From Caldilineaceae bacterium (GTDB lineage Bacteria; Chloroflexota; Anaerolineae; Caldilineales; Caldilineaceae), in assembly GCA_019637685.1 (NCBI GenBank), contig JAHBVF010000016.1, positions 62,001 through 126,000 of the forward strand: 64,000 bases of DNA, written 5' to 3'. Position numbers and translations under genes: made by a program. The notes beneath the pieces are model-generated. The model was not told where the DNA came from. It searched no databases and saw nothing but the letters and a program-made list of their open reading frames with translations. Positions within the stretch are counted from its first letter, which is position 1. Each line of letters opens with the position of its first letter. Shown here one piece after another: positions 36,492-45,748 of this stretch.

Positions 36492-37799
36492 TTACAACGC
36501 GCCTGCATTCAGACGGTGCAGCCTGGACTCCAGCCGTTCCATTGCGCCCAGCAGGCTGACATCGGCCCGGCGTCGGGCACTCTGGGCAAAGACCCGGCTT
36601 AGCACGTCCGGCGCATAGTTGGCTGTGCGGATTTCTTCCAGTTCGTGCTGCACCAGCCGGGGCGAGATGCGAATGCCGTGGGCGGCCAGCACCTGACGAA
36701 AGTAGGGCAGGTTTTCACAGAGACCGACTGTCACCGATTCAAAGCCGTGATTGATCACCCGCAGACGGCTGGCATAGTCCATCAGATCGTAGCCGAACAT
36801 TTTCTGGTCGTCGGGCCGGGGTTCAATGAGGATAATATCCACATCCGGGTATTTGTGGCGCAGATTTTTGATGTGATAGCGCAGCCCAGAGTGGAGCAAC
36901 ACCCGCAAGACCTGGCGGCTGATTGCCCGCATCCCCCCTTCGGACAGATGATGCCCTTCGCCGTAGATTTCCGGGGCGTTGAGCGGGGCCAGTGGGTTGA
37001 TGCAGACCACCAGATCCGCGCCGGATTCAATGGCCAGATCGATGCTGGCGTTGCCCCGAATTCCTCCGTCAATGTACTCTTTGCCGTAAATGTTGACTGG
37101 CTTGTAGAGCAGGGGAACCGCGCTGCTGGCAGCCACGGCTTTGCTGATGGGGACAATTCCCTTACCGCCTTTGCCAAAGACCGCTCGCTCCCCGGTGTCC
37201 AGGTCTGTGGCGACAATATAGAGGTCTTTATCCAGCTGATCAAAGCGGTTTGTGCAGCCCGGATGGGCCAGCACTTCATCCAAATAGTGTTCCAGGGCGC
37301 TGCCGCTGAACAGACCTGACGGCAGCAGGTCGGTCAGGTTCCACAAGAGATCGGTCAGATTCATATCGTTGAAATGGCTGGCGTAGGTGCGCAGGGAGCG
37401 AAAGAGTGTGGCGGGCAGGCCGGGGACACGCCGCAGGGCTTCGCCCACATTGGCCTGAAAGATGTCGCTGGCCTGAATCCCCCGCACCTCCGGGTGGTTG
37501 TCCTCGATGGCCTGCATCATTTCGTCCGGGGTCATCCCGTTGGCGATCATCGAGCCAACCAGCGCGCCCGCGCTGGTTCCCACATAAATGTCAAAGTCAT
37601 TGACTGTCTGGTTGACGAGCATATCGTTCATCGCCCGCAACGCGCCGATTTCGTAGACTGCGCCAGTGATCCCACCCCCGGCCAGCACCAGCGCGCTCTT
37701 GCCCGCGCGGGGTCTATCGCCTGTCCTTTTGCTCTTCGCCTTGCTCTTTGCCTGAATGGAGGGAGGGATATACTCGTCTATTTCGTCGTTGAATTGCAT
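36492..37799 (-). CDS. Patatin-like phospholipase
   Basis: Lipid acyl hydrolase of 435 residues. The oxyanion-hole motif is LAGGGITGAVYEIGALRA, the nucleophile elbow is VGTSAGALVG (GxSxG) and the catalytic aspartate lies in EYIDGGIRGN. The dyad is complete, so the enzyme should be active on phospholipid or other acyl esters. The N-terminal 40 residues are hydrophilic. I start at the ATG 37799; the frame is open to 37880, but there it reads through an intergenic ACAAAGGCACAAAAACACG repeat, which by chance resembles a signal peptide. Confidence 0.92.
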   Translation of the reverse strand: MQFNDEIDEYIPPSIQAKSKAKSKRTGDRPRAGKSALVLAGGGITGAVYEIGALRAMNDMLVNQTVNDFDIYVGTSAGALVGSMIANGMTPDEMMQAIEDNHPEVRGIQASDIFQANVGEALRRVPGLPATLFRSLRTYASHFNDMNLTDLLWNLTDLLPSGLFSGSALEHYLDEVLAHPGCTNRFDQLDKDLYIVATDLDTGERAVFGKGGKGIVPISKAVAASSAVPLLYKPVNIYGKEYIDGGIRGNASIDLAIESGADLVVCINPLAPLNAPEIYGEGHHLSEGGMRAISRQVLRVLLHSGLRYHIKNLRHKYPDVDIILIEPRPDDQKMFGYDLMDYASRLRVINHGFESVTVGLCENLPYFRQVLAAHGIRISPRLVQHELEEIRTANYAPDVLSRVFAQSARRRADVSLLGAMERLESRLHRLNAGAL

Positions 37800-37818
37800 A
37801 AAGTCCGCTTTGACTTGT

Positions 37819-37858
37819 GAACCACAAAGGCACAAAAACACGAAGAAAAACAAAAAAG
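37819..37858. repeat. ACCACAAAGGCACAAAAACACG-type intergenic repeat
   Basis: Lysine-codon-like A-rich repeat just upstream of the patatin gene. Words of this form are widespread between genes in environmental genomes. The other bases between the patatin start and the PHA-regulator gene contain nothing else I can name. Confidence 0.6.
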
Positions 37859-37934
37859 TACACCAGTGACACAAATGCAATGGATGGACAGTACGTGTCA
37901 GCCTGTCACCCCTTCACTCTTTGGGCCTTTGCGG

Positions 37935-38480
37935 TTAGGTTTCGTTTTGCGTATCTTCTTCCGCCAGGCTGTTGAGTTGTTCGGTCAGCAGAGCCAGCTT
38001 ATCCCGCAGATCCACAATGTCCCGGTTGGTGGGGATATTCAGGCGGTGCAGGATAGCCGCCATATTTTCGTCCAGCCGGGTCAATTCCTTGCCTTCGCTC
38101 TGCAACTCTGAGGCCACTGATTTGGCCTGTTCCGCGCTCAATTTTCCGGCGGCGACCAGTTGGGCCAAGCGTTCTTCGACAATACCCACACCCGCGGGCA
38201 GTGTGCCCTGCACCTGGCGCAGCAGAAATTCCAGTGTGTCGCCGCCGGTACGGATCAAATTGGTCATCAGCGATTGGGGCAAGAATCCTGACTGGCGCTT
38301 CTCCATCTCCAGAATAATCTGGCTGAGGGTCAGGCTGGTCAGGTCGTCGCCGGTTTCGTGATCGGTGACTGTCACCTCTGCCCCCGCCTGAATCATCTGC
38401 GTGATCTGTTCCAATGTGACGTAATGTTTGGCTTCGGTGTCGTAGAGTTTGCGGTTGGGATAACGTTTGATCTGGGGCAT
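37935..38480 (-). CDS. PhaR-like polyhydroxyalkanoate synthesis regulator
   Basis: A 181-residue protein. The first 60 residues are the PHA-accumulation regulator DNA-binding domain: IKRYPNRKLYDTEAKHYVTLEQI followed by TGDDLTSLTLSQIILE. The C-terminal 110 residues are mostly helical with heptad-like leucines, resembling the phasin-like or oligomerisation part. In known members it binds PHA granules and represses phasin genes. No PHA synthase lies nearby, although a thiolase is at 57987. The start at 38480 has CAGGAAATGTCCA upstream; the longer reading to 38558 does not fit the family. Confidence 0.88.
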   Translation of the reverse strand: MPQIKRYPNRKLYDTEAKHYVTLEQITQMIQAGAEVTVTDHETGDDLTSLTLSQIILEMEKRQSGFLPQSLMTNLIRTGGDTLEFLLRQVQGTLPAGVGIVEERLAQLVAAGKLSAEQAKSVASELQSEGKELTRLDENMAAILHRLNIPTNRDIVDLRDKLALLTEQLNSLAEEDTQNET

Positions 38481-38554
38481 TGGACATTTCCTGCTGGCAA
38501 TGGGCGATCTGCTTTCGTAGACATAGAGATCATAGCACATCATTACGCAGTGCG

Positions 38555-39439
38555 TCAATCGTCATTTTGGCAGATACGGCCTACAAAATCAGTCTGGTGG
38601 GCGATGTAGACCAGTTCGCCCGACCCGATCTGCTGCCGCCGGGTGGAGAGCCAATCGGAAAATATCTCTGGGTCCAGCTCGGGGTGGCCGCGCAGTGTGC
38701 TCTCTATAAAGTGCAGAATACAGTGGAGGAAGTAGGCTTCGTCCTGGGGATATACCCCCGCGGAGCCAAAGACGACCCAATCTGAGCTGCCCGCGGCCAG
38801 AATCTCCACCCCCGCGGCGGGCAGCAGGTGAAAGAGATGGCGTCCTGTGCGGCTGTCGCCGGAGGGCTGGCCGTCGGTGATGCGCTCGTCCATTGAACGG
38901 TGATAGAGCGCTTCAATCTGGGCGTCCAATCCGGCGTCAATGACTGGTTCGAAGATTGTCGCACCGTCAAAGTTGATGGTGAAATAGCATAGCCCATCCG
39001 GTTTGACCATCCGCAGCAGGCGCGGCAACGCGGCCGGTACGTCGAAGAGGTCCAGGACCGCGTGGGCGATAAGCAGATCGTAGCGCGCCTGGTTGTGTGG
39101 CCGCCGGGCAAAGTCAAAGACATCTGCCTGCTCGACAGCCAAATCCAGCCCTGCGCCGCGGCCTGTGCCCAGCCGGGCGCGGATGGCCGCCACATTCTCT
39201 GCTTCGTTGTCCAGAGCGGTGTAGCGGGCCTGTTCCAGCAAACCCCACGCCACCACCCGCTCTGCCATTGTGCCAATGCCCGCGCCAATCTCCAGCACAT
39301 CCAACGGCTGTCCGCCGGATGTCTGCGCGGCTACTTCGTCGGCCAGGCGCTGCCAGACCAGCCGGTTGAGCGCGCGGTCGTCCACACTCTTTTTGGCTGC
39401 CAAATAGCGGGGAAAGGAGAAGGGAAGTGTCTGTGTCAT
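38555..39439 (-). CDS. Class I SAM methyltransferase, last gene of the RibA-RibD operon
   Basis: A 294-residue SAM-dependent methyltransferase. The motif I loop [15 protein letters not shown], an acidic residue in TALDNEAEN (motif II) and [16 protein letters not shown] (post-I/III) define the SAM pocket. The C-terminal half is unlike well-known small-molecule methyltransferases. It starts 13 bases after the GT4 gene stops, and the order GTP cyclohydrolase fusion, dehydrogenase, PTPS-like, GT4, methyltransferase suggests it modifies a glycosylated pyrimidine or pterin intermediate (inference). Confidence 0.88.
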
Positions 39440-39452
39440 AAAATTTTACGCT

Positions 39453-40565
39453 TTAGTTTTGGCGGGAGCAGCTCACCTGCTCTTGCAAGAAGCCCCGGAT
39501 GCTCGCCCCCGTCTCTGCCCAGGTGGGATGGCTGTCGTAGAATTGCCGGGCTGCGCGCCCCATTTCGGCCAGTGCAGACCGATCTGCCAGACAAGTGCCC
39601 AGGACGCGGGCCATTTCAGCGCCGGCAGCGGGCTGCACCAGAAAACCGTTGACGCCCGCCCGCACAATCTCGTGGGCCGCGCCGGCTGAGGAAGCGATGA
39701 CGGGCAGTCCGAAAGCCATCGCTTCCAGATAGACGATGCCAAAGCCCTCATAAGACGGCACGGCCAGCAGGTGGCAGCATGAAAAATATTCGGCCAGTGC
39801 CGTGTCATTCACCCGCCCGTGCAGTGTGACGGCTGCGCCCAATCCCAGCCGTTCAATCTGCGTTTGGACGCGCGCCGTATAGTCGGAATCCACATCCGTA
39901 CTCCCGACGGCGTGCAGTCGCCAGTCCCGATTGGAGAGCTGGGCCAGGGCGGCCAACAGATGGTGCAGTCCTTTGCGGGGGATAAGATTGCCCACAAAAA
40001 GAATCTCCAGCGGGCCGGCGCGGGCGCGGCGTTCCTCAATCAGCCGTTGGATTGTCTTGGCCGAGGGAAGCTTCACGTGATCCGCGGCCGGATAGGCAAT
40101 GATTTTTTGCGCTTTGCTGTGCCTTTTGTGCTTTCCAAGCAATACTTCGACGGTTTCCTGTGTGGTACGGCTGTTGAAAATAAAACCATCCACCGACGCC
40201 AGGTAGCGTCCCTCCACCCAGCGATAGAAGGGCAGCAGCCAGGCCGGGTGTTCTTCGCTGGCCCGCAGGTGATGGACGATACTCACCACCGGAAAGGGCG
40301 CGTTTCGGAATGTTCGGTTGGCCCAGGCCAGGGAGGGATGGTTGAGTTCATCCTGCAGGAGAATATCCACATCCAGCCCGGCCAGCCGTCTCCGCCACGC
40401 CGGACTGAAGTTGTCCAGCAGATGGTGGGGATAGGCACGCCAGGGCAGGGAGATGATTTCTACGCTGTCGCCCTGGCCGCGCAGATAGTTCACCAGTTGC
40501 CGGTCATAGAGATAGCCACCGGAGAGGGTGTCCAAACTGCCGTAGATGACCAAACCGATGCGCAT
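39453..40565 (-). CDS. GT4-family glycosyltransferase in the RibA-RibD operon
   Basis: A 370-residue GT-B enzyme. It shows MRIGLVIYGSLDTLSGGYLYDRQL at the N-terminus, in line with a Gly-rich loop of GT4 enzymes, then LFVGNLIPRKGLHHLLAAL and the signature PSYEGFGIVYLEAMAFGLPVIAS. It probably transfers a sugar from a nucleotide donor. It lies between the PTPS-like and methyltransferase genes in one minus-strand operon. A 96-base gap on its upstream side contains a degenerate GAACGCGGATAAAGCGGAT repeat (40600-40640), which may interrupt what was once tighter coupling. Confidence 0.9.
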   Translation of the reverse strand: MRIGLVIYGSLDTLSGGYLYDRQLVNYLRGQGDSVEIISLPWRAYPHHLLDNFSPAWRRRLAGLDVDILLQDELNHPSLAWANRTFRNAPFPVVSIVHHLRASEEHPAWLLPFYRWVEGRYLASVDGFIFNSRTTQETVEVLLGKHKRHSKAQKIIAYPAADHVKLPSAKTIQRLIEERRARAGPLEILFVGNLIPRKGLHHLLAALAQLSNRDWRLHAVGSTDVDSDYTARVQTQIERLGLGAAVTLHGRVNDTALAEYFSCCHLLAVPSYEGFGIVYLEAMAFGLPVIASSAGAAHEIVRAGVNGFLVQPAAGAEMARVLGTCLADRSALAEMGRAARQFYDSHPTWAETGASIRGFLQEQVSCSRQN

Positions 40566-40599
40566 CTGATTTCACTTTTTAGCAAAGAGATGGATTTTG

Positions 40600-40640
40600 G
40601 AATAGAACGCGGATAAAGCGGATCGGACGAATTCCCCCTG
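40600..40640. repeat. Degenerate GCGGATAAAGCGGAT intergenic repeat inside the RibA-RibD operon
   Basis: The word AACGCGGATAAAGCGGAT recalls the GATGAACACAGAT/GAACGCGGAT family seen at 28094 and 61107. It sits in the 96-base gap between the PTPS-like and GT4 genes. Confidence 0.5.
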
Positions 40641-40661
40641 ATTTTTCATCTGCCCGCCCTG

Positions 40662-41039
40662 TCATCTTGTCAAACTGTATGATGCCCAGGCGATCTCATT
40701 CTCCCAAATTTTCACCCGCACCGCGCTGATGTTGGGCGCGTTCAGATGGTTGGAAAAATGGGCGCAGACGATGCGGCAAAAATGCTCGATGCTGGGATTC
40801 AGCCCGGCAAATTCGGCCAGATCGTTGAGGGTCTTGTCCCGATAGCGGGCCACGATTTCTTCCAGCAGTGCTTCCACCTGCACAATGTCCACCAGATAGC
40901 CGTGCTGGTCCAGGGTTGCGCCCTCCAACTGAATTTCCAGCCGGTAGTGGTGGGAATGCCACTGGTTTTCCGCGCCCCAGTCGCCGCCGATGAGGAAGTG
41001 CTGGCCGGTAAAATTTCGCTGCACGGCAAGGGTGTACAC
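40662..41039 (-). CDS. PTPS/QueD-fold protein lacking the catalytic cysteine
   Basis: A 125-residue tunnelling-fold protein of the 6-pyruvoyl-tetrahydropterin synthase/6-carboxytetrahydropterin synthase family. Zinc histidines are visible at His14 (TGQHF) and in HSHHY (His28 and His30). The usual CxxxHGH cysteine is absent: the residue four before His28 is Glu24 (ENQWHSHHY). The family includes a cysteine-lacking, glutamate-bearing group, PTPS-III, that cleaves dihydroneopterin triphosphate instead of making a pyruvoyl pterin. Whether this protein belongs there is uncertain. It begins 15 bases after the MDR gene ends and lies in the RibA-RibD operon, not with queuosine genes. Confidence 0.85.
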   Translation of the reverse strand: MYTLAVQRNFTGQHFLIGGDWGAENQWHSHHYRLEIQLEGATLDQHGYLVDIVQVEALLEEIVARYRDKTLNDLAEFAGLNPSIEHFCRIVCAHFSNHLNAPNISAVRVKIWENEIAWASYSLTR

Positions 41040-41054
41040 GTCTTTTCTCCTGTT

Positions 41055-42062
41055 CTATCGATAGTCCAGCACCACCTGCACTGTCTGTTCTGGCTGCTGG
41101 TCGATCAGTTGATAGGCGGCGGTGGCTTCTTCTACAGGGAAGCGGTGGGTGATCAGCCGCTCGATGGGCAGGTCGGCCAGAAAACGCCAGGCGCTCTCCA
41201 TCCGCCGGGCTTTGCTCCAGCGGCCGGTCAGGCCGGGCGCGATTGTGCTCACCTGACTGCTGACGAGCTGAATGCGGTTGCGGTGGAAATGTTCGCCCAG
41301 GTCCAGACTGGCCCGTTTGTTGCCATACCACGAACCGATGACAATCCGTGCGCCAAATCCGGCCATCTGCACCGCCTGATCCAACGCGGCGGGCTGACCG
41401 GATAGTTCAAAAATCAGGTCTGTGCCGTGGCCTGCTGACAAGTCCAGGGAGGAAGATTCTGTGTCCGCGGGATCAAAAGTGTGGGACGCGCCCAATGTGC
41501 GGGCCAGTGCCCGGCGCTGGGGGATAGGATCGAAAACATCGAGCGCGGCCAGGGGGAATTGGGCCAGCAGCGCGGTGGTCAGCAGCCCCACAATCCCCAG
41601 GCCAAAGACAACGACCCGCTCGCCCACCAGTGGCGCGCCGTCCATCACCAGATTGACGGCTGTTTCGGCGTTGGGGAGCAGGCTGGCTCGTTCTGTGTCC
41701 ATTCCTGTGGGCAAGGGCAGCAGCGTGGCGACGGGCGCGCAGAAATGGCTTTCGTGGGGGTGAAAGGCAAATACCCGTTGCCCCCGCCACGTGTCTGCCA
41801 CATCTGGCCCCGTTTCTGCCACCCGGCCCACACAGGCATAGCCATATTTGAGCGGATAGGCCAGGCTGCCGGCGAGGGAGGCAATAGACGTATCCACGGC
41901 CAGGCCGGCGGGAAGCTGCCCCCGATAAAAGAGCATTTCCGTGCCGGGGCTGATGGCAGAGACCAGCGTTTCGACCAGAACTTCGCCGGGAGCGGGTGCG
42001 GGAAGGGTTTCTTCCACCACCGCGGCCTGGCGTGGCCCCGTGAAATAGACGCTACGGCGCAT
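41055..42062 (-). CDS. MDR-superfamily dehydrogenase without zinc-ligand cysteines
   Basis: A 335-residue NAD(P)-dependent medium-chain dehydrogenase/reductase. The nucleotide fold is VVVFGLGIVGLLTTALLAQF, and PLKYGYACVGRV is the conserved GroES-domain turn. The catalytic Zn positions are lost: where alcohol dehydrogenases have a Cys-Gly-Thr motif, it reads ISPGTEMLFYRG. It therefore more likely resembles the BchC/threonine-dehydrogenase-like zinc-independent members. The ATG at 42062 overlaps the TGA of the upstream fusion gene (TGATG), which ties their translation together. The longer reading from 42080 is not needed. Confidence 0.88.
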   Translation of the reverse strand: MRRSVYFTGPRQAAVVEETLPAPAPGEVLVETLVSAISPGTEMLFYRGQLPAGLAVDTSIASLAGSLAYPLKYGYACVGRVAETGPDVADTWRGQRVFAFHPHESHFCAPVATLLPLPTGMDTERASLLPNAETAVNLVMDGAPLVGERVVVFGLGIVGLLTTALLAQFPLAALDVFDPIPQRRALARTLGASHTFDPADTESSSLDLSAGHGTDLIFELSGQPAALDQAVQMAGFGARIVIGSWYGNKRASLDLGEHFHRNRIQLVSSQVSTIAPGLTGRWSKARRMESAWRFLADLPIERLITHRFPVEEATAAYQLIDQQPEQTVQVVLDYR

Positions 42063-43465
42063 CAGGCCAAAGCCCCCCAAATTGTCACGTCTGGACCGAC
42101 CTGAATCACCTGCGGGTTGTCTATGCGCGGCAAATTTGTCTGAGACGGCGTGGCCGTTGGGTTCACCGCGTGGACGCCGCCCACAAAAAAGGGCGCGACT
42201 GTCACGACTGTATAGTGGGCCAGGCGGGCTGCCAAAAAGGAGGTGAGGATCGACGGGCCGCCCTCCACCATCAGCGAACGCAGCCCCTTTGTGCCCAGAC
42301 AGCGCAGAAACGCGGTCAGGTCCACCTGGCCGTCGGCGGTAGCAGGTACGCGCAAAATGCGTGCCCCGGTTGCCTCCAAAGCCCGTTGACGTTCAACCGG
42401 GGCCGCCGGGGTGGTGGCGATCCAGACCGAGCGAGGCATTTGCAACAGGCGGGCCGTGAGCGGCAGACGCAGATGGGAATCCACCACAATCGGCTGGGGA
42501 TTGCTGCCTGTCGCCAGCCGTACGGTCAGGCTGGGATCGTCGGCCAGGGCCGTGCCGATGCCCACCAGAATGCCATCGTGGACAGCGCGCAGGGCGTGGG
42601 TCATTGCCAGTGCTTCGGCCGCGCTGATGTCCAGGCGTTGGCCCGGTTGAGCGGCCACACACCCATCCAGGCTCTGGGCATAGCTGAGGGTGACAAAAGG
42701 ACGATTGGTGGCGTGGGAATGGGCCTCTGCCTGCTGGGCCAGGGAATGCAACGCACCCGCATAGGGCAGCGCGGCCATTGGCGGGGCTTTTGGCTCCCCG
42801 TGCAAATGATCCAAATGGCCGTTCAAGTCCAGCAGATGGCGCATCCGGTCTGCTTTGGCGCGCAAATAGTCCGCGTTTTGTCGGTTCACAGTGGGCTGCA
42901 TGGGCAGCCGCGCGATGACCGAAATTCCGTGACTTTCCAGACTTTCTATTTTGGCCGGGTTGTTGGTGAGCAGGCGGACAGACCGGACTTTCAACTGTTG
43001 CAGAATGAGCGCGGCCGGGGTGTAGTCCCTTTCGTCCGCGCCGTGGCCCAGGAGCAGGTTGGCATCTACGGTATCGTAGCCCTGATCCTGCAAGTTGTAG
43101 GCTCGCAGCTTCTCCGCCAGCCCAATGCCCCGCCCTTCCTGGCGTAGATAGACGACGACTCCGCTCCCTTCCGCGGCAATGGATTGTATGGCATTTGCCA
43201 ATTGTTCCCCGCAATCACAGCGCTGGGAGCCAAGCACATCGCCGGTGAAGCACTCCGAATGGACCCGCACCAGCACGCCGTCGTGCTGGGAAACATCGCC
43301 CATCACCAGGGCCAGATGCTCTTTGCTATCCCAATTGTTCTGAAAATGGAGCAGGTGAAATTCCCCGTCTGGGGTGGGAATTCGCGCGGCAGCCGTCTGT
43401 GTCATCTGTAGATGGACATGAGAACGGGGCCGCTGGGTGGCATGGGGTCGAGGCAGGGCAGACAT
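42062..43465 (-). CDS. GTP cyclohydrolase II fused to RibD-type reductase
   Basis: A 467-residue two-domain enzyme. Residues about 25-220 are GTP cyclohydrolase II (RibA): zinc cysteines Cys72, Cys83 and Cys85 (HSEC...RCDCG), RQEGRGIGL and LRAYNLQDQGYDTV. Tyr123 is at the position of E. coli Tyr105, so full hydrolysis to the diaminopyrimidine is expected. Residues about 255-467 are the RibD/RibG C-terminal reductase (LSYAQSLDG, VGIGTALADDP, LMVEGGPSILTSFL). The RibD deaminase and the RibB domain are absent. Thus GTP should be converted to a reduced ribityl-type pyrimidine, as in the archaeal order of steps (inference). The start at 43465 is tentative; the family core also fits the ATG at 43405. 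Neither has a clear ribosome site. Confidence 0.93.
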   Translation of the reverse strand: MSALPRPHATQRPRSHVHLQMTQTAAARIPTPDGEFHLLHFQNNWDSKEHLALVMGDVSQHDGVLVRVHSECFTGDVLGSQRCDCGEQLANAIQSIAAEGSGVVVYLRQEGRGIGLAEKLRAYNLQDQGYDTVDANLLLGHGADERDYTPAALILQQLKVRSVRLLTNNPAKIESLESHGISVIARLPMQPTVNRQNADYLRAKADRMRHLLDLNGHLDHLHGEPKAPPMAALPYAGALHSLAQQAEAHSHATNRPFVTLSYAQSLDGCVAAQPGQRLDISAAEALAMTHALRAVHDGILVGIGTALADDPSLTVRLATGSNPQPIVVDSHLRLPLTARLLQMPRSVWIATTPAAPVERQRALEATGARILRVPATADGQVDLTAFLRCLGTKGLRSLMVEGGPSILTSFLAARLAHYTVVTVAPFFVGGVHAVNPTATPSQTNLPRIDNPQVIQVGPDVTIWGALA

Positions 43466-43588
43466 TGCTTGTCCCACTGTGGAAGGGTCGTTGGGTACAA
43501 TAATAGAACGAATCCGGTGGCTGATTTGGATTGGCGGCAAATGCAGGGCGGAAATATGGAACAGCAGGCAAAGGGCGGCAGATATAGA

Positions 43589-43627
43589 GAAGCGAGACAC
43601 CTGACGACGCAACAGGTATCTCGCTTC
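43589..43627 (-). terminator. Hairpin between the sulfite-oxidase-fold gene and the RibA-RibD operon
   Basis: GAAGCGAGACACCTG (43589-43603) pairs with CAGGTATCTCGCTTC (43613-43627) with one mismatch over a 9-base loop. Read on the minus strand it comes after the stop codon of the 43649 gene. Confidence 0.7.
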
Positions 43628-43648
43628 GTTTCTTGTGGTGGAATGAGT

Positions 43649-44281
43649 TTACCAGCCGAAACGTTCTTCCAGCCAGGGATCGCCTTCCATGTGATAGCCG
43701 TGGCGTTCCCAGAAGCCAGGACTATCGCCCTGGATAAATTCCAGCCCGCGCAGCCATTTGGCACTCTTCCAAAAATACTTTTTGGGCACGAGCAGGCGCA
43801 TAGGATAGCCGTGATCCGGCTCCAGCGGCTTGCCGTCGTACAGATGGGCCAGCATTGTGTCGTCGTCGTCCAGCACATCCAGAGCGATATTGGTGGTATA
43901 GCCCTGATCGCAGTGGGCCATCACGTGGGTGGCCCTGGGATCGATGTCGAGCAACTTTATGAAATCCCGCCAGGCCACGCCAGTCCAGGTGGTGTCCAGC
44001 TTGCTCCAACGGGTGACACAGTGGATGTCCACTGTCTGGGTTTTCTGGGGTAACTCCATCAGATCAGCCCAGGAGAAGCGCTTTTCTTCGTTCACCAGAC
44101 CAAAGACCCGCAGGTCCCAGCCGTTTAGATTGGGATAGTGAACTGTCTCGCCGTAGGTGAGCACGGGAAAACGCTCGGTCAAGAACTGGCCGGGCGGGAC
44201 GCGTTCGTCTGGATTCTCGCCGGGCAGGTTCTTCACCCGTTTGAGCCGTTCTACTTTTTTGAAGGGATTTTCAATGCGCAT
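43649..44281 (-). CDS. Sulfite-oxidase-fold molybdopterin enzyme (YedY/MsrP-like, cytoplasmic)
   Basis: A 210-residue oxidoreductase with the sulfite-oxidase molybdopterin fold. The Mo-ligand cysteine lies in [10 protein letters not shown], and GVAWRDFI and [19 protein letters not shown] are typical pterin-contact stretches. It lacks the Tat signal and the dimerisation domain of sulfite oxidase, so it is the short soluble type found widely in Chloroflexota and archaea. Its electron partner is unknown. AGGAGGGC lies eight bases before the ATG. The 190-base gap 44282-44473 on its upstream side contains only tandem AAGAATTG words. Confidence 0.9.
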
Positions 44282-44473
44282 TGCTTGCCCTCCTGTTGGG
44301 CTGCCTGTATTGGCCTACTTGTCCTGACTGGATTCACGCGCCGTGTGCGCGTGGCGAACAGTTGAACAGTAGCGCTCTCGGCTCTTTATACACGTAATCC
44401 AACTTCCCAAACAAGAGATGGGCAAGCAGCGGATAAGAATTGAATAAGAATTGGGCCAAAAGAGATGCGTTGT

Positions 44474-45748
44474 CTACGCTACAAAACGCTTCAGCACCAG
44501 TGTCGCATTCTGTCCGCCCAGGCCAAAGCCGTTGCACAGCCCCGCGTCCACCCGGTGTTCCCGGCTTTTGTTGGGCACGTAGTCCAGATCGCAGTCCGGG
44601 TCGGGAATTTCGTAGTTGATGGTGGGCAGGATGCGGTCTTCCTGCATAGCCTTAACCAGCACCGCCGCGCTCTGCGCGCCCGCAGCGCCCATAGCATGGC
44701 CAATGCTGCTTTTAATGCTGGTGACGGGAATGGTATAGGCCGCTTCCCCAAAGACCCGCTTGATGGCCGCGGTTTCCATTGTATCGTTGAGCATCGTGCC
44801 TGTGCCGTGAGCCACAATCCAGTCGATGTCCGTGGGAGCCAGACCGCTTTCGGCCAGGGCCAGGGACATACAGGTCGTTGCACCCGTGCCTGTGGGTTCC
44901 GGGGCCACCATATCGTAGGCGTCTTCGCTGATGGCATAGCCGGCCACTTCGGCCAGAATCGTCGCGTTCCGAGCCTGGGCGTGCTCCAGTGTCTCCAGCA
45001 CAAAGACGCCTGCTCCCTCGGCCACAACCATTCCATCCCGGTTGCCGCTGAAGGGTGCGCAGGCTTTTTCCGGGTTGGCGTTGTTGGTGCTGGCCGCGCC
45101 CAGGCGGCTGAAGGTAGTGATGATCATTCGGGAGAGGTAGCCTTCCGCGCCACCCGCAATCATCACATCCGCGTCGCCCCGTTGCAGGCGGCGGGCGGCC
45201 TCGCCGATAGATGTGATGCCCGTGGCGCAGGCCGTGACCTGGCTGTTGGTTGGCCCGTGAACACCGAATTTGATGGCGATAAAAGTGGGTGTGCCGCTGA
45301 TCAGTGCAGCCGTTCCCTGGGCCGGATTAAAGCGCCGGGGGCCGCCTTCGGCCAGTTTGGCGCTCTCTTCCTCCACAATATCCCAGCCGCCAAAAGCCAG
45401 GCCGATCTCCACGCCGATCCGCTGGCGGTTCTCCTGCTCCAAATCCAGACCGGACATTGCCACCGCGTCCTGGGCTGCTTTGTAGGCAAACTGGGTTCCC
45501 CGTCCGGTGCGCCGGGCCTCTTTGCGGTCCATGTAATCGCCGGGTTCCCAATCGTTCACCCGTCCATTGATTTGGGTGGGAAACTCGGAAGCATCCCAGT
45601 GGGTGATGGCGCTGGTTCCCGACTTGCCCGCGGCCATCTGCGCCCAGGAAGTGGACAGGTCGTGGCCCAGGGGGGTGACGAGTCCTACGCCGGTGATGAC
45701 AACCCGGCGGACTGGGTTTGCAGCGGGAGAATGTCCATTCGTATTCAT
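44474..45748 (-). CDS. fabF: 3-oxoacyl-ACP synthase II (FabF/KASII)
   Basis: Condensing enzyme of fatty-acid elongation, 424 residues. The thiolase-fold motifs are complete: nucleophilic cysteine in VTACATGITS, histidine in VAHGTGTMLND, lysine in SIKSSIGH and the second histidine in SIGHAMGAAG, ending with NGFGLGGQNATLVL. It joins malonyl-ACP to acyl-ACP with loss of CO2. The start at 45748 is chosen by alignment to the usual RRVVITGVG N-terminus; the open frame to 46147 is not coding. No ACP, FabD or FabG gene is next to it. Confidence 0.95.
   Translation of the reverse strand: MNTNGHSPAANPVRRVVITGVGLVTPLGHDLSTSWAQMAAGKSGTSAITHWDASEFPTQINGRVNDWEPGDYMDRKEARRTGRGTQFAYKAAQDAVAMSGLDLEQENRQRIGVEIGLAFGGWDIVEEESAKLAEGGPRRFNPAQGTAALISGTPTFIAIKFGVHGPTNSQVTACATGITSIGEAARRLQRGDADVMIAGGAEGYLSRMIITTFSRLGAASTNNANPEKACAPFSGNRDGMVVAEGAGVFVLETLEHAQARNATILAEVAGYAISEDAYDMVAPEPTGTGATTCMSLALAESGLAPTDIDWIVAHGTGTMLNDTMETAAIKRVFGEAAYTIPVTSIKSSIGHAMGAAGAQSAAVLVKAMQEDRILPTINYEIPDPDCDLDYVPNKSREHRVDAGLCNGFGLGGQNATLVLKRFVA

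Follow-up and report, generated by a model that had tools for sequence, protein, structure and literature searches.

Background

Members of the PTPS family have been told apart by short motifs, which one survey gives as CxxxHGH for PTPS-I/QueD, CxxxxxHGH for PTPS-II and ExxHGH for PTPS-III (PMC5041015). A further class, PTPS-IV, has been described in an AGeNNT analysis with the signature FGPAQ and 561 sequences, and a homologue of this class was reported in 2017 to neighbor PF00925 and PF01872, with no product given in those parts of the paper that are accessible (PMC5445326). Here we describe a five-gene operon with a comparable combination of domains in a stretch of 64,000 nucleotides (henceforth the window) from contig JAHBVF010000016.1 of a Caldilineaceae bacterium of the phylum Chloroflexota (GCA_019637685.1). 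It encodes a fusion of GTP cyclohydrolase II (GCHII, RibA) with the C-terminal reductase domain of RibD (RibD_C), a medium-chain dehydrogenase (MDR) that probably works without zinc, a PTPS-fold protein, a GT4-type glycosyltransferase and a methyltransferase. Judged by motif and phylogenetic tree, the PTPS-fold protein represents a subfamily of its own (ExxxHSH) that lacks the signatures of PTPS-I to -IV, and we propose, with moderate confidence, that the operon as a whole is best explained as encoding the central steps of a dedicated pathway from GTP to a product other than flavin.

Organization and domain content of the operon

An initial annotation of the window had recognized a five-gene operon, and its content and place are borne out by the open reading frames (ORFs) and Pfam matches, all five genes lying on the minus strand from 43465 down to 38555:

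42062-43465, minus strand: RibA (GCHII)-RibD_C fusion, 467 aa; PF00925 (E = 9e-67) and PF01872 (E = 8.4e-43)
41055-42062, minus strand: probable zinc-less MDR with a match to ADH_zinc_N; Pfam, NCBIfam and alignment
40662-41039, minus strand: PTPS-fold protein, 125 aa, assigned to the ExxxHSH subfamily; Pfam PTPS (4.5e-26), motif, tree and AlphaFold model
39453-40565, minus strand: GT4-type glycosyltransferase, 370 aa; Pfam
38555-39439, minus strand: class I S-adenosylmethionine-dependent methyltransferase, 294 aa; Methyltransf_25 (Pfam)

A possible ATG start of the MDR gene at 42062 shares one base with the TGA of the fusion (TGATG), as had been claimed, and the remaining gaps of 15, 96 and 13 bases agree with the spacing described earlier, including its one 96-base gap. 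The open frames of the fusion and the MDR extend further, to TTG codons at 43612 and 42080 respectively. No Rfam match, and hence no flavin mononucleotide (FMN) riboswitch match, was found in 37000-45000, and a promoter and terminator scan gave a number of sites not above that in shuffled sequences.

Both parts of the fusion score above the cut-offs of their models, with 257.7 bits for the GCHII model TIGR00505 (cut-off 205.85) and 162.5 bits for the RibD reductase model TIGR00227 (cut-off 150.15), and Pfam finds no deaminase domain in it, just as the initial annotation had stated. In the MDR, Ser44 (in SAIS-x-GTE) occupies what we take to be the position of the first Cys ligand of zinc MDRs (ligands Cys, His, Cys) and is invariant in 20 of 20 aligned sequences; on this alignment the protein would fall outside the zinc-dependent alcohol dehydrogenases, which accords with its description as zinc-less. 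Its nearest NCBIfam model, BchC, scores 91 bits, far below the cut-off of 291, and the PDB neighbors of its profile include sorbitol, xylitol and galactitol-phosphate dehydrogenases, enzymes that use zinc. The methyltransferase matches the generic class I fold alone (TM 0.57-0.59 in the top three rows), which gives no clue to its substrate.

A distinctive PTPS-fold protein

The AlphaFold model of the PTPS-fold protein (pLDDT 96.9) places it in the T-fold superfamily. Its best solved match by both sequence and fold is SCO6650 of Streptomyces coelicolor (PDB 3d7j; TM 0.91, 21% identity), a protein that the title of its structure calls uncharacterized and that is said, in the accompanying structure paper, not to perform the PTPS reaction. 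An alignment of the window protein with 36 relatives, chosen from 59 suitable ones, has His14, His28, His30, Glu24 and Glu113 invariant in all 37 sequences. Glu24 stands four residues ahead of His28, just as the catalytic Cys stands ahead of the first His in the CxxxHGH enzymes, which upholds the earlier claim that Glu takes the place of this Cys. The pattern E-xxx-(H/N)-(S/A)-H recurs in 99 of 105 PTPS ORFs, the exceptions being five IV-type loci and locus L112, and the window protein has YRDK where Escherichia coli QueD has LDHH. In the known PTPS mechanism Cys, Asp and His have catalytic roles, and the conserved Glu of pterin-binding T-folds recognizes the 2-amino-4-oxo ring. Given that the three histidines and Glu113 are kept and the Cys, Asp and His positions are replaced, the protein appears mostly to retain a metal site of the zinc type and the anchor for the ring and to have lost the residues of the known mechanism.

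None of the four published classes accommodates the protein. It has ENQWHSH and not the CxxxHGH of PTPS-I/QueD, and the CxxxxxHGH of PTPS-II is likewise missing; relative to PTPS-III the Glu lies one residue further out and HSH stands instead of HGH; and DWGAEN stands in place of the FGPAQ of PTPS-IV, from which it is also separated in the tree. This tree of 57 rows, in which the bootstrap had not fully settled and long branches were flagged, falls into an E-type group of 40 (support 100/99) that includes the window protein, an IV-type group of 8 (99/87) and a QueD-like group of 9 (100/97). The NCBIfam QueD model gives 47 bits against a cut-off of 89.25. The QueD-like proteins of other Chloroflexota (L018, L019, L020, L024, L025, L030 and L031) have CExLHGH, which PMC5041015 lists as a PTPS-I/III hybrid motif.

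Spread and conservation of the gene set

A search of 201 genomes of the phylum (the phylum sample) with the PTPS-fold protein gave matches below E = 1e-40 in 16 genomes, separated by a clean break from the next best at 4.8e-20. In named genomes 417 relatives were confirmed, and the best 80 of these, which were analyzed further, are mostly from Chloroflexota metagenome-assembled genomes (MAGs), with three labeled Desulfomonile or Deltaproteobacteria (L111, L120 and L125); the nearest, at 89 and 88% identity, come from MAGs called Litorilinea aerophila. We compared 102 loci, namely the window stretch, 15 regions from the phylum sample, the 80 named loci and 6 plasmid loci, many of them on contigs that end early. 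The recurring families across these are the GT4 glycosyltransferase (88), the MDR (83), the methyltransferase (72) and the family of the fusion (56); some frequent ORF families that overlap the core genes on the opposite strand were discarded by eye as shadow ORFs. Where the PTPS gene is flanked by 5 kb or more on each side (47 of the 80 named loci, here termed roomy), genes on the same strand within 5 kb encode the MDR in 42, GT4 in 42, RibD_C in 39, the methyltransferase in 38 and RibA in 37. The recurrence of the gene set exceeds chance. All five domains are found in 42 of the 80 named loci versus 1 of the 15 phylum regions, and RibA is fused to RibD_C in 40 versus none, so fusion is a trait of the closer relatives. 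The expectation of the initial annotation that homologous neighborhoods keep the five genes together fails for some relatives, the PTPS gene having none of the partners in 1 of the 80 named loci and 4 of the 15 phylum regions.

The neighborhood comparison that had been suggested for this operon also finds the genes clustered outside the phylum and even outside the Bacteria: besides Chloroflexota and the three Desulfomonile or Deltaproteobacteria MAGs, related gene sets occur on haloarchaeal plasmids and, with a diverged PTPS, in Streptomyces. The haloarchaeal and Streptomyces neighborhoods were taken from the incomplete gene tables of PLSDB, and 7 of 19 plasmid matches were examined. An Arthrobacter plasmid with an unannotated record yielded the MDR, PTPS and GT4 genes by profile. 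The similar actinobacterial clusters that the initial annotation had mentioned do exist, one of them on a Streptomyces fungicidicus plasmid, and PMC5445326 has published a PTPS-IV neighborhood that includes GCHII and RibD_C. One of the two Streptomyces matches examined (L175, on a plasmid of Streptomyces sp. NBC_00019) is a Streptomyces-type PTPS with no annotated cluster gene nearby.

Relation to riboflavin biosynthesis

The genome that contains the window (6.32 Mb in 70 contigs, 98.25% complete, 5.13% contamination) has a single GCHII match (PF00925), inside the operon. Searches of it for RibB, riboflavin synthase and RibH gave nothing at E = 0.001; a flavokinase was found. The same searches in 14 control genomes recovered RibH in 14, RibB in 14, riboflavin synthase in 11, GCHII in 10 and flavokinase in 10. 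Given that RibB, riboflavin synthase and RibH are undetected, the operon cannot supply flavin, which, with a flavokinase present, is presumably obtained by uptake; this supports the earlier statement that the locus is not a plain riboflavin operon. The initial annotation had also considered the case of a genome with no other riboflavin genes in which the operon supplies flavin: no other such genes were found, but the operon cannot act as the supplier, and the case fails as a whole.

RibH and GCHII were searched in the phylum sample and in 46 Caldilineaceae genomes (the family sample) as well. RibH is found in 4 of the 46, one of which (G242) has 10% contamination. The 42 RibH-less family genomes have GCHII in 33 of 35 that are PTPS-positive and in none of 7 that are PTPS-negative (Fisher p = 1.3e-6, ignoring relatedness), and where both genes are present (34 family genomes) they lie on the same contig in 32 and within 3 kb in 31. 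Within the genus of the window's own genome, the nearly complete G226 and G228 are without both GCHII and PTPS. Likewise, among 23 RibH-less genomes of the same class in the phylum sample, GCHII is present in 11 of 12 with a PTPS orthologue versus 2 of 11 without one (p = 6e-4, again ignoring relatedness). Together these counts suggest that GCHII is mostly retained where the PTPS gene exists. In one family genome, G203, RibH was found and GCHII went undetected, which may be due to an assembly gap or to another GTP-opening enzyme.

Variation in the GTP-opening step

The GTP-opening step is retained while its form varies. Twelve free-standing GCHII loci were examined in RibH-less genomes of the same class, and RibD_C adjoins GCHII in 11 of them (L133 and L135-L144, not L134), 9 being from PTPS-positive genomes and 2 from the PTPS-negative G046 and G072. 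One of the four haloarchaeal loci examined, that of Haloarcula halophila, has a GTP cyclohydrolase III (PF05165, E = 6.6e-81) directly before the MDR; no GTP-opening enzyme was found near the other three. The same pyrimidine is a riboflavin precursor in haloarchaea, which would explain why the plasmid of Halobellus limi needs only an MDR-PTPS-methyltransferase set. The S. fungicidicus plasmid cluster has a free-standing RibA along with a creatininase-family protein, and a creatininase-family protein is also present in Haloarcula sinaiiensis. According to PMC9478397, enzymes that deformylate the same GTP-derived intermediate in archaea and bacteria belong to this family. Among NCBIfam models, however, that of mycofactocin MftE gives both proteins the higher scores (141 and 147 bits, under its cut-off of 172), ArfB giving 37 and 21 bits (cut-off 180).

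A further variant is seen in G142, a genome of another class with a diverged IV-type PTPS, in which a same-strand run codes for methyltransferase, FolB, RibD_C, MDR, PTPS and GT4 (L152, 5004-9303), with GCHII close by on the opposite strand. FolB (PF02152, E = 1e-29) is a dihydroneopterin aldolase and acts on dihydroneopterin, so its presence in this run favors a pterin.

In three genomes with two GCHII matches each (G118, G134 and G052; L147-L149) and no match to the E-type PTPS, a short GCHII lies near an acyltransferase of a family found in some PTPS clusters, with two MFS-transporter ORFs between them in L147.

Membrane-associated partners

Some relatives of the operon add genes for membrane functions, namely a CDP-alcohol phosphotransferase in which the family motif is complete, a flippase-like LPG-synthase-TM protein and a PlsC-like acyltransferase. 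The phosphotransferase occurs in 15 of the 80 named loci, always with the flippase-like protein, which itself occurs in 17, and in L106 and L109 the pair is contiguous and on the same strand with the core genes. Both are also found in the S. fungicidicus cluster, the phosphotransferase in 3 of the 4 haloarchaeal loci examined, and in the window's own genome the two, which join the operon in some Anaerolineae, lie side by side on another contig (C44; L173, 9580-11828). In addition, a small hydrophobic multi-transmembrane-like protein recurs near PTPS in Chloroflexota and in two haloarchaeal loci, one copy of which matches DUF7475.

Given these partners, a link of the product to the membrane or to a lipid is also conceivable. 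One form of this idea, compatible with the proposed pathway, is a lipid-linked headgroup in which the phosphotransferase would couple CDP-diacylglycerol or CDP-archaeol to a hydroxyl of the ribityl chain, and the product would be flipped by the LPG-synthase-TM protein. The pairing and contiguity described above, the adjacent pair on C44 and the recurrent hydrophobic protein speak for such a headgroup, but we hold it to be possible, if on balance unlikely, for several reasons. Within the family the phosphotransferase gives strong matches in 33 of 36 PTPS-positive genomes but also in 3 of 10 PTPS-negative ones (G226, G228 and G237), with weaker matches in 5 more; in the phylum sample no match at E = 1e-5 was found in 10 of 12 same-class PTPS-positive genomes; and the gene is in none of the 15 phylum regions and not in the operon of the window. 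A strict dependence between phosphotransferase and operon, hinted at by the two strong matches in 201 genomes (both PTPS-positive), is weakened by the three PTPS-negative family genomes.

A proposed pathway and its alternatives

By the roles of the families, GCHII would open GTP to 2,5-diamino-6-ribosylamino-pyrimidinone 5'-phosphate and RibD_C, acting with no deaminase partner, would reduce the ribose to ribitol; since the deaminase is missing, the 2-amino-4-oxo ring is predicted to stay intact. The MDR may oxidize one hydroxyl, either on the ribityl chain or on an intermediate formed later. The PTPS-fold protein could bind the 2-amino-4-oxo ring via Glu113 and help to close or trim the molecule, most simply to a pterin. 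By analogy, glycosylation by GT4 and methylation by the methyltransferase would be the last steps. In some relatives the CDP-alcohol phosphotransferase and flippase-like protein may attach and move the product in the membrane, which is the weakest step of the scheme. A more specific form, to which we give tentative and limited credence, is a stepwise pterin route of Bacteria and Archaea independent of GTP cyclohydrolase I (GCHI): RibD_C would reduce C1' of the ribose, the MDR would turn C2' of the ribityl chain into a ketone and the PTPS-fold protein would close the ring to dihydroneopterin phosphate, the product being glycosylated, methylated and sometimes lipid-anchored. The C2' ketone is the Amadori-type intermediate that GCHI forms within one active site before ring closure, and we propose the stepwise route because oxidation of the ribityl C2' would yield it; the FolB gene in the G142 cluster leads us to rate it somewhat higher.

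Alternatively, the product might stay a ribityl-pyrimidine (or become an 8-ribityl pterin via a dicarbonyl), sugar-linked and methylated, with the PTPS-fold protein merely binding or trimming it. The initial annotation, which had suggested a sugar-linked and methylated ribityl-pyrimidine or pterin, corresponds to this reading in its pyrimidine option. RibD_C would indeed give a ribityl-diaminopyrimidine, the catalytic Cys, Asp and His positions of PTPS are replaced and the closest solved relative is named uncharacterized and reportedly does not catalyze the PTPS reaction; however, the retention of Glu113 and, mostly, of the three histidines suggests a working pterin-type pocket, the adjoining MDR suggests side-chain oxidation, and the G142 FolB also argues for a pterin, so that we consider this outcome rather doubtful. 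Far less probable is a role in queuosine, folate or F420 biosynthesis. Automatic names (6-carboxytetrahydropterin synthase, and queuosine on the plasmids), the G142 FolB and a gene annotated as an F420-dependent oxidoreductase two genes past ribA in the S. fungicidicus locus would fit such a role, and PMC5041015 mentions an unpublished involvement of PTPS-IV in F420. Nevertheless, the CxxxHGH motif and an adequate QueD score are lacking, the tree sets the window protein apart from both QueD-like and IV-type groups, and que, fol and F420 enzymes make up 0 of 20 annotated recurring or nearby proteins. The least credible reading, which we regard as extremely improbable, takes the locus for an ordinary riboflavin operon that has lost some of its genes, or for one that supplies flavin by another route: RibA and RibD_C are riboflavin enzymes, but RibB, riboflavin synthase and RibH are undetected in the genome, 42 of the 46 family genomes are without RibH, no FMN riboswitch matches and, within the RibH-less family genomes, GCHII occurs only alongside the PTPS gene.

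Several observations weigh against the dedicated pathway from GTP. Kinship among genomes inflates the Fisher values for the co-occurrence of GCHII and PTPS; the PTPS-positive family genomes G223 and G235, both fragmented assemblies, and G184 of the same class show no GCHII; and G046 and G072 have GCHII in a RibD_C-RibA pair (L143 and L144) without PTPS. The PTPS gene stands without any partner in L114 of the named loci and in L038, L039, L045 and L046 of the phylum regions (the genomes of L038 and L039, G145 and G161, have GCHII, MDR and GT4 grouped elsewhere, in L145 and L146), 9 of the 47 roomy loci have no methyltransferase gene near PTPS on its strand, and the H. limi plasmid carries just three of the genes. 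Asn replaces His28 in 9 of the 105 PTPS ORFs and L045 is without the anchor Glu. Further, FolB was seen in a single diverged relative, the one IV-type locus examined for it, and the cell may additionally synthesize conventional pterins.

If the dedicated pathway is correct, a GTP-derived cofactor-like or membrane molecule, nameless so far, may be common to many Chloroflexota, some haloarchaea and Streptomyces. As the Caldilineaceae operon lies mostly in RibH-less genomes, a comparison by mass spectrometry would be less clouded by flavin intermediates. The automatic labels "queuosine" and "riboflavin" would be corrected, and the motif of the distinct PTPS subfamily could be used for annotation.

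Genes flanking the operon

Upstream of the operon and on the same strand are genes for a sulfite-oxidase-type molybdopterin protein (PF00174, 43649-44281) and a beta-ketoacyl synthase (PF00109/PF02801, 44474-45709), and ORF families matching both recur upstream in other Caldilineaceae loci. Directly downstream lies a gene for a PhaR-like polyhydroxyalkanoate regulator (PF07879, 37935-38558), the longest ORF of which overlaps the end of the methyltransferase gene, followed by a patatin-like gene. L047 shows ORF families like this downstream pair after its operon, and L048 shows one of the two.

Comparison with known systems

The published PTPS-IV neighborhoods resemble the window in that a PTPS homologue is accompanied by GCHII and RibD_C (PMC5445326), and the window has a neighborhood of that type. 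The IV-type loci L150, L151 and L152 likewise carry MDR and GT4 genes. The PTPS proteins themselves differ, that of the window having ExxxHSH and belonging to its own group of 40 rows (100/99), whereas the IV-type proteins with FGPAQ form another of 8 (99/87). The Streptomyces cluster, in which we presume SCO6650 to sit, is similar in having MDR, PTPS, GT4 and methyltransferase genes in a row with GCHII nearby, as on the S. fungicidicus plasmid, and in the fold of its PTPS (TM 0.91 between the window protein and 3d7j). It differs in its free-standing GCHII and in the added creatininase-family and flippase-like proteins, no RibD_C was found in the 18-kb S. fungicidicus locus, and the Streptomyces PTPS is 22% identical to that of the window, with HGA instead of HSH.

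The riboflavin pathway, whether by RibA and RibD or by GTP cyclohydrolase III, ArfB and ArfC, has its first two steps in common with the operon, and some relatives possibly also share the formamidase chemistry that PMC9478397 describes for the creatininase family. The operon differs in that its fusion is without a deaminase domain and its genome without detectable RibB, riboflavin synthase or RibH. With PTPS-III, the Glu enzyme that replaces FolB in Plasmodium and some bacteria, the window protein has in common a T-fold with a Glu near the zinc histidines, and Plasmodium vivax PTPS-III mutants of the "catalytic residue" E37 are among its structural matches; the motif there is ExxHGH, as opposed to ExxxHSH in the window.

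We recognized no description of the product of such a cluster in the open PMC literature. As far as that literature shows, the E-type subfamily, found in RibH-less Chloroflexota genomes and on haloarchaeal plasmids, is new, and the same holds for the GTP cyclohydrolase III form, for the occurrence of FolB in a cluster of this kind and for the added membrane genes.

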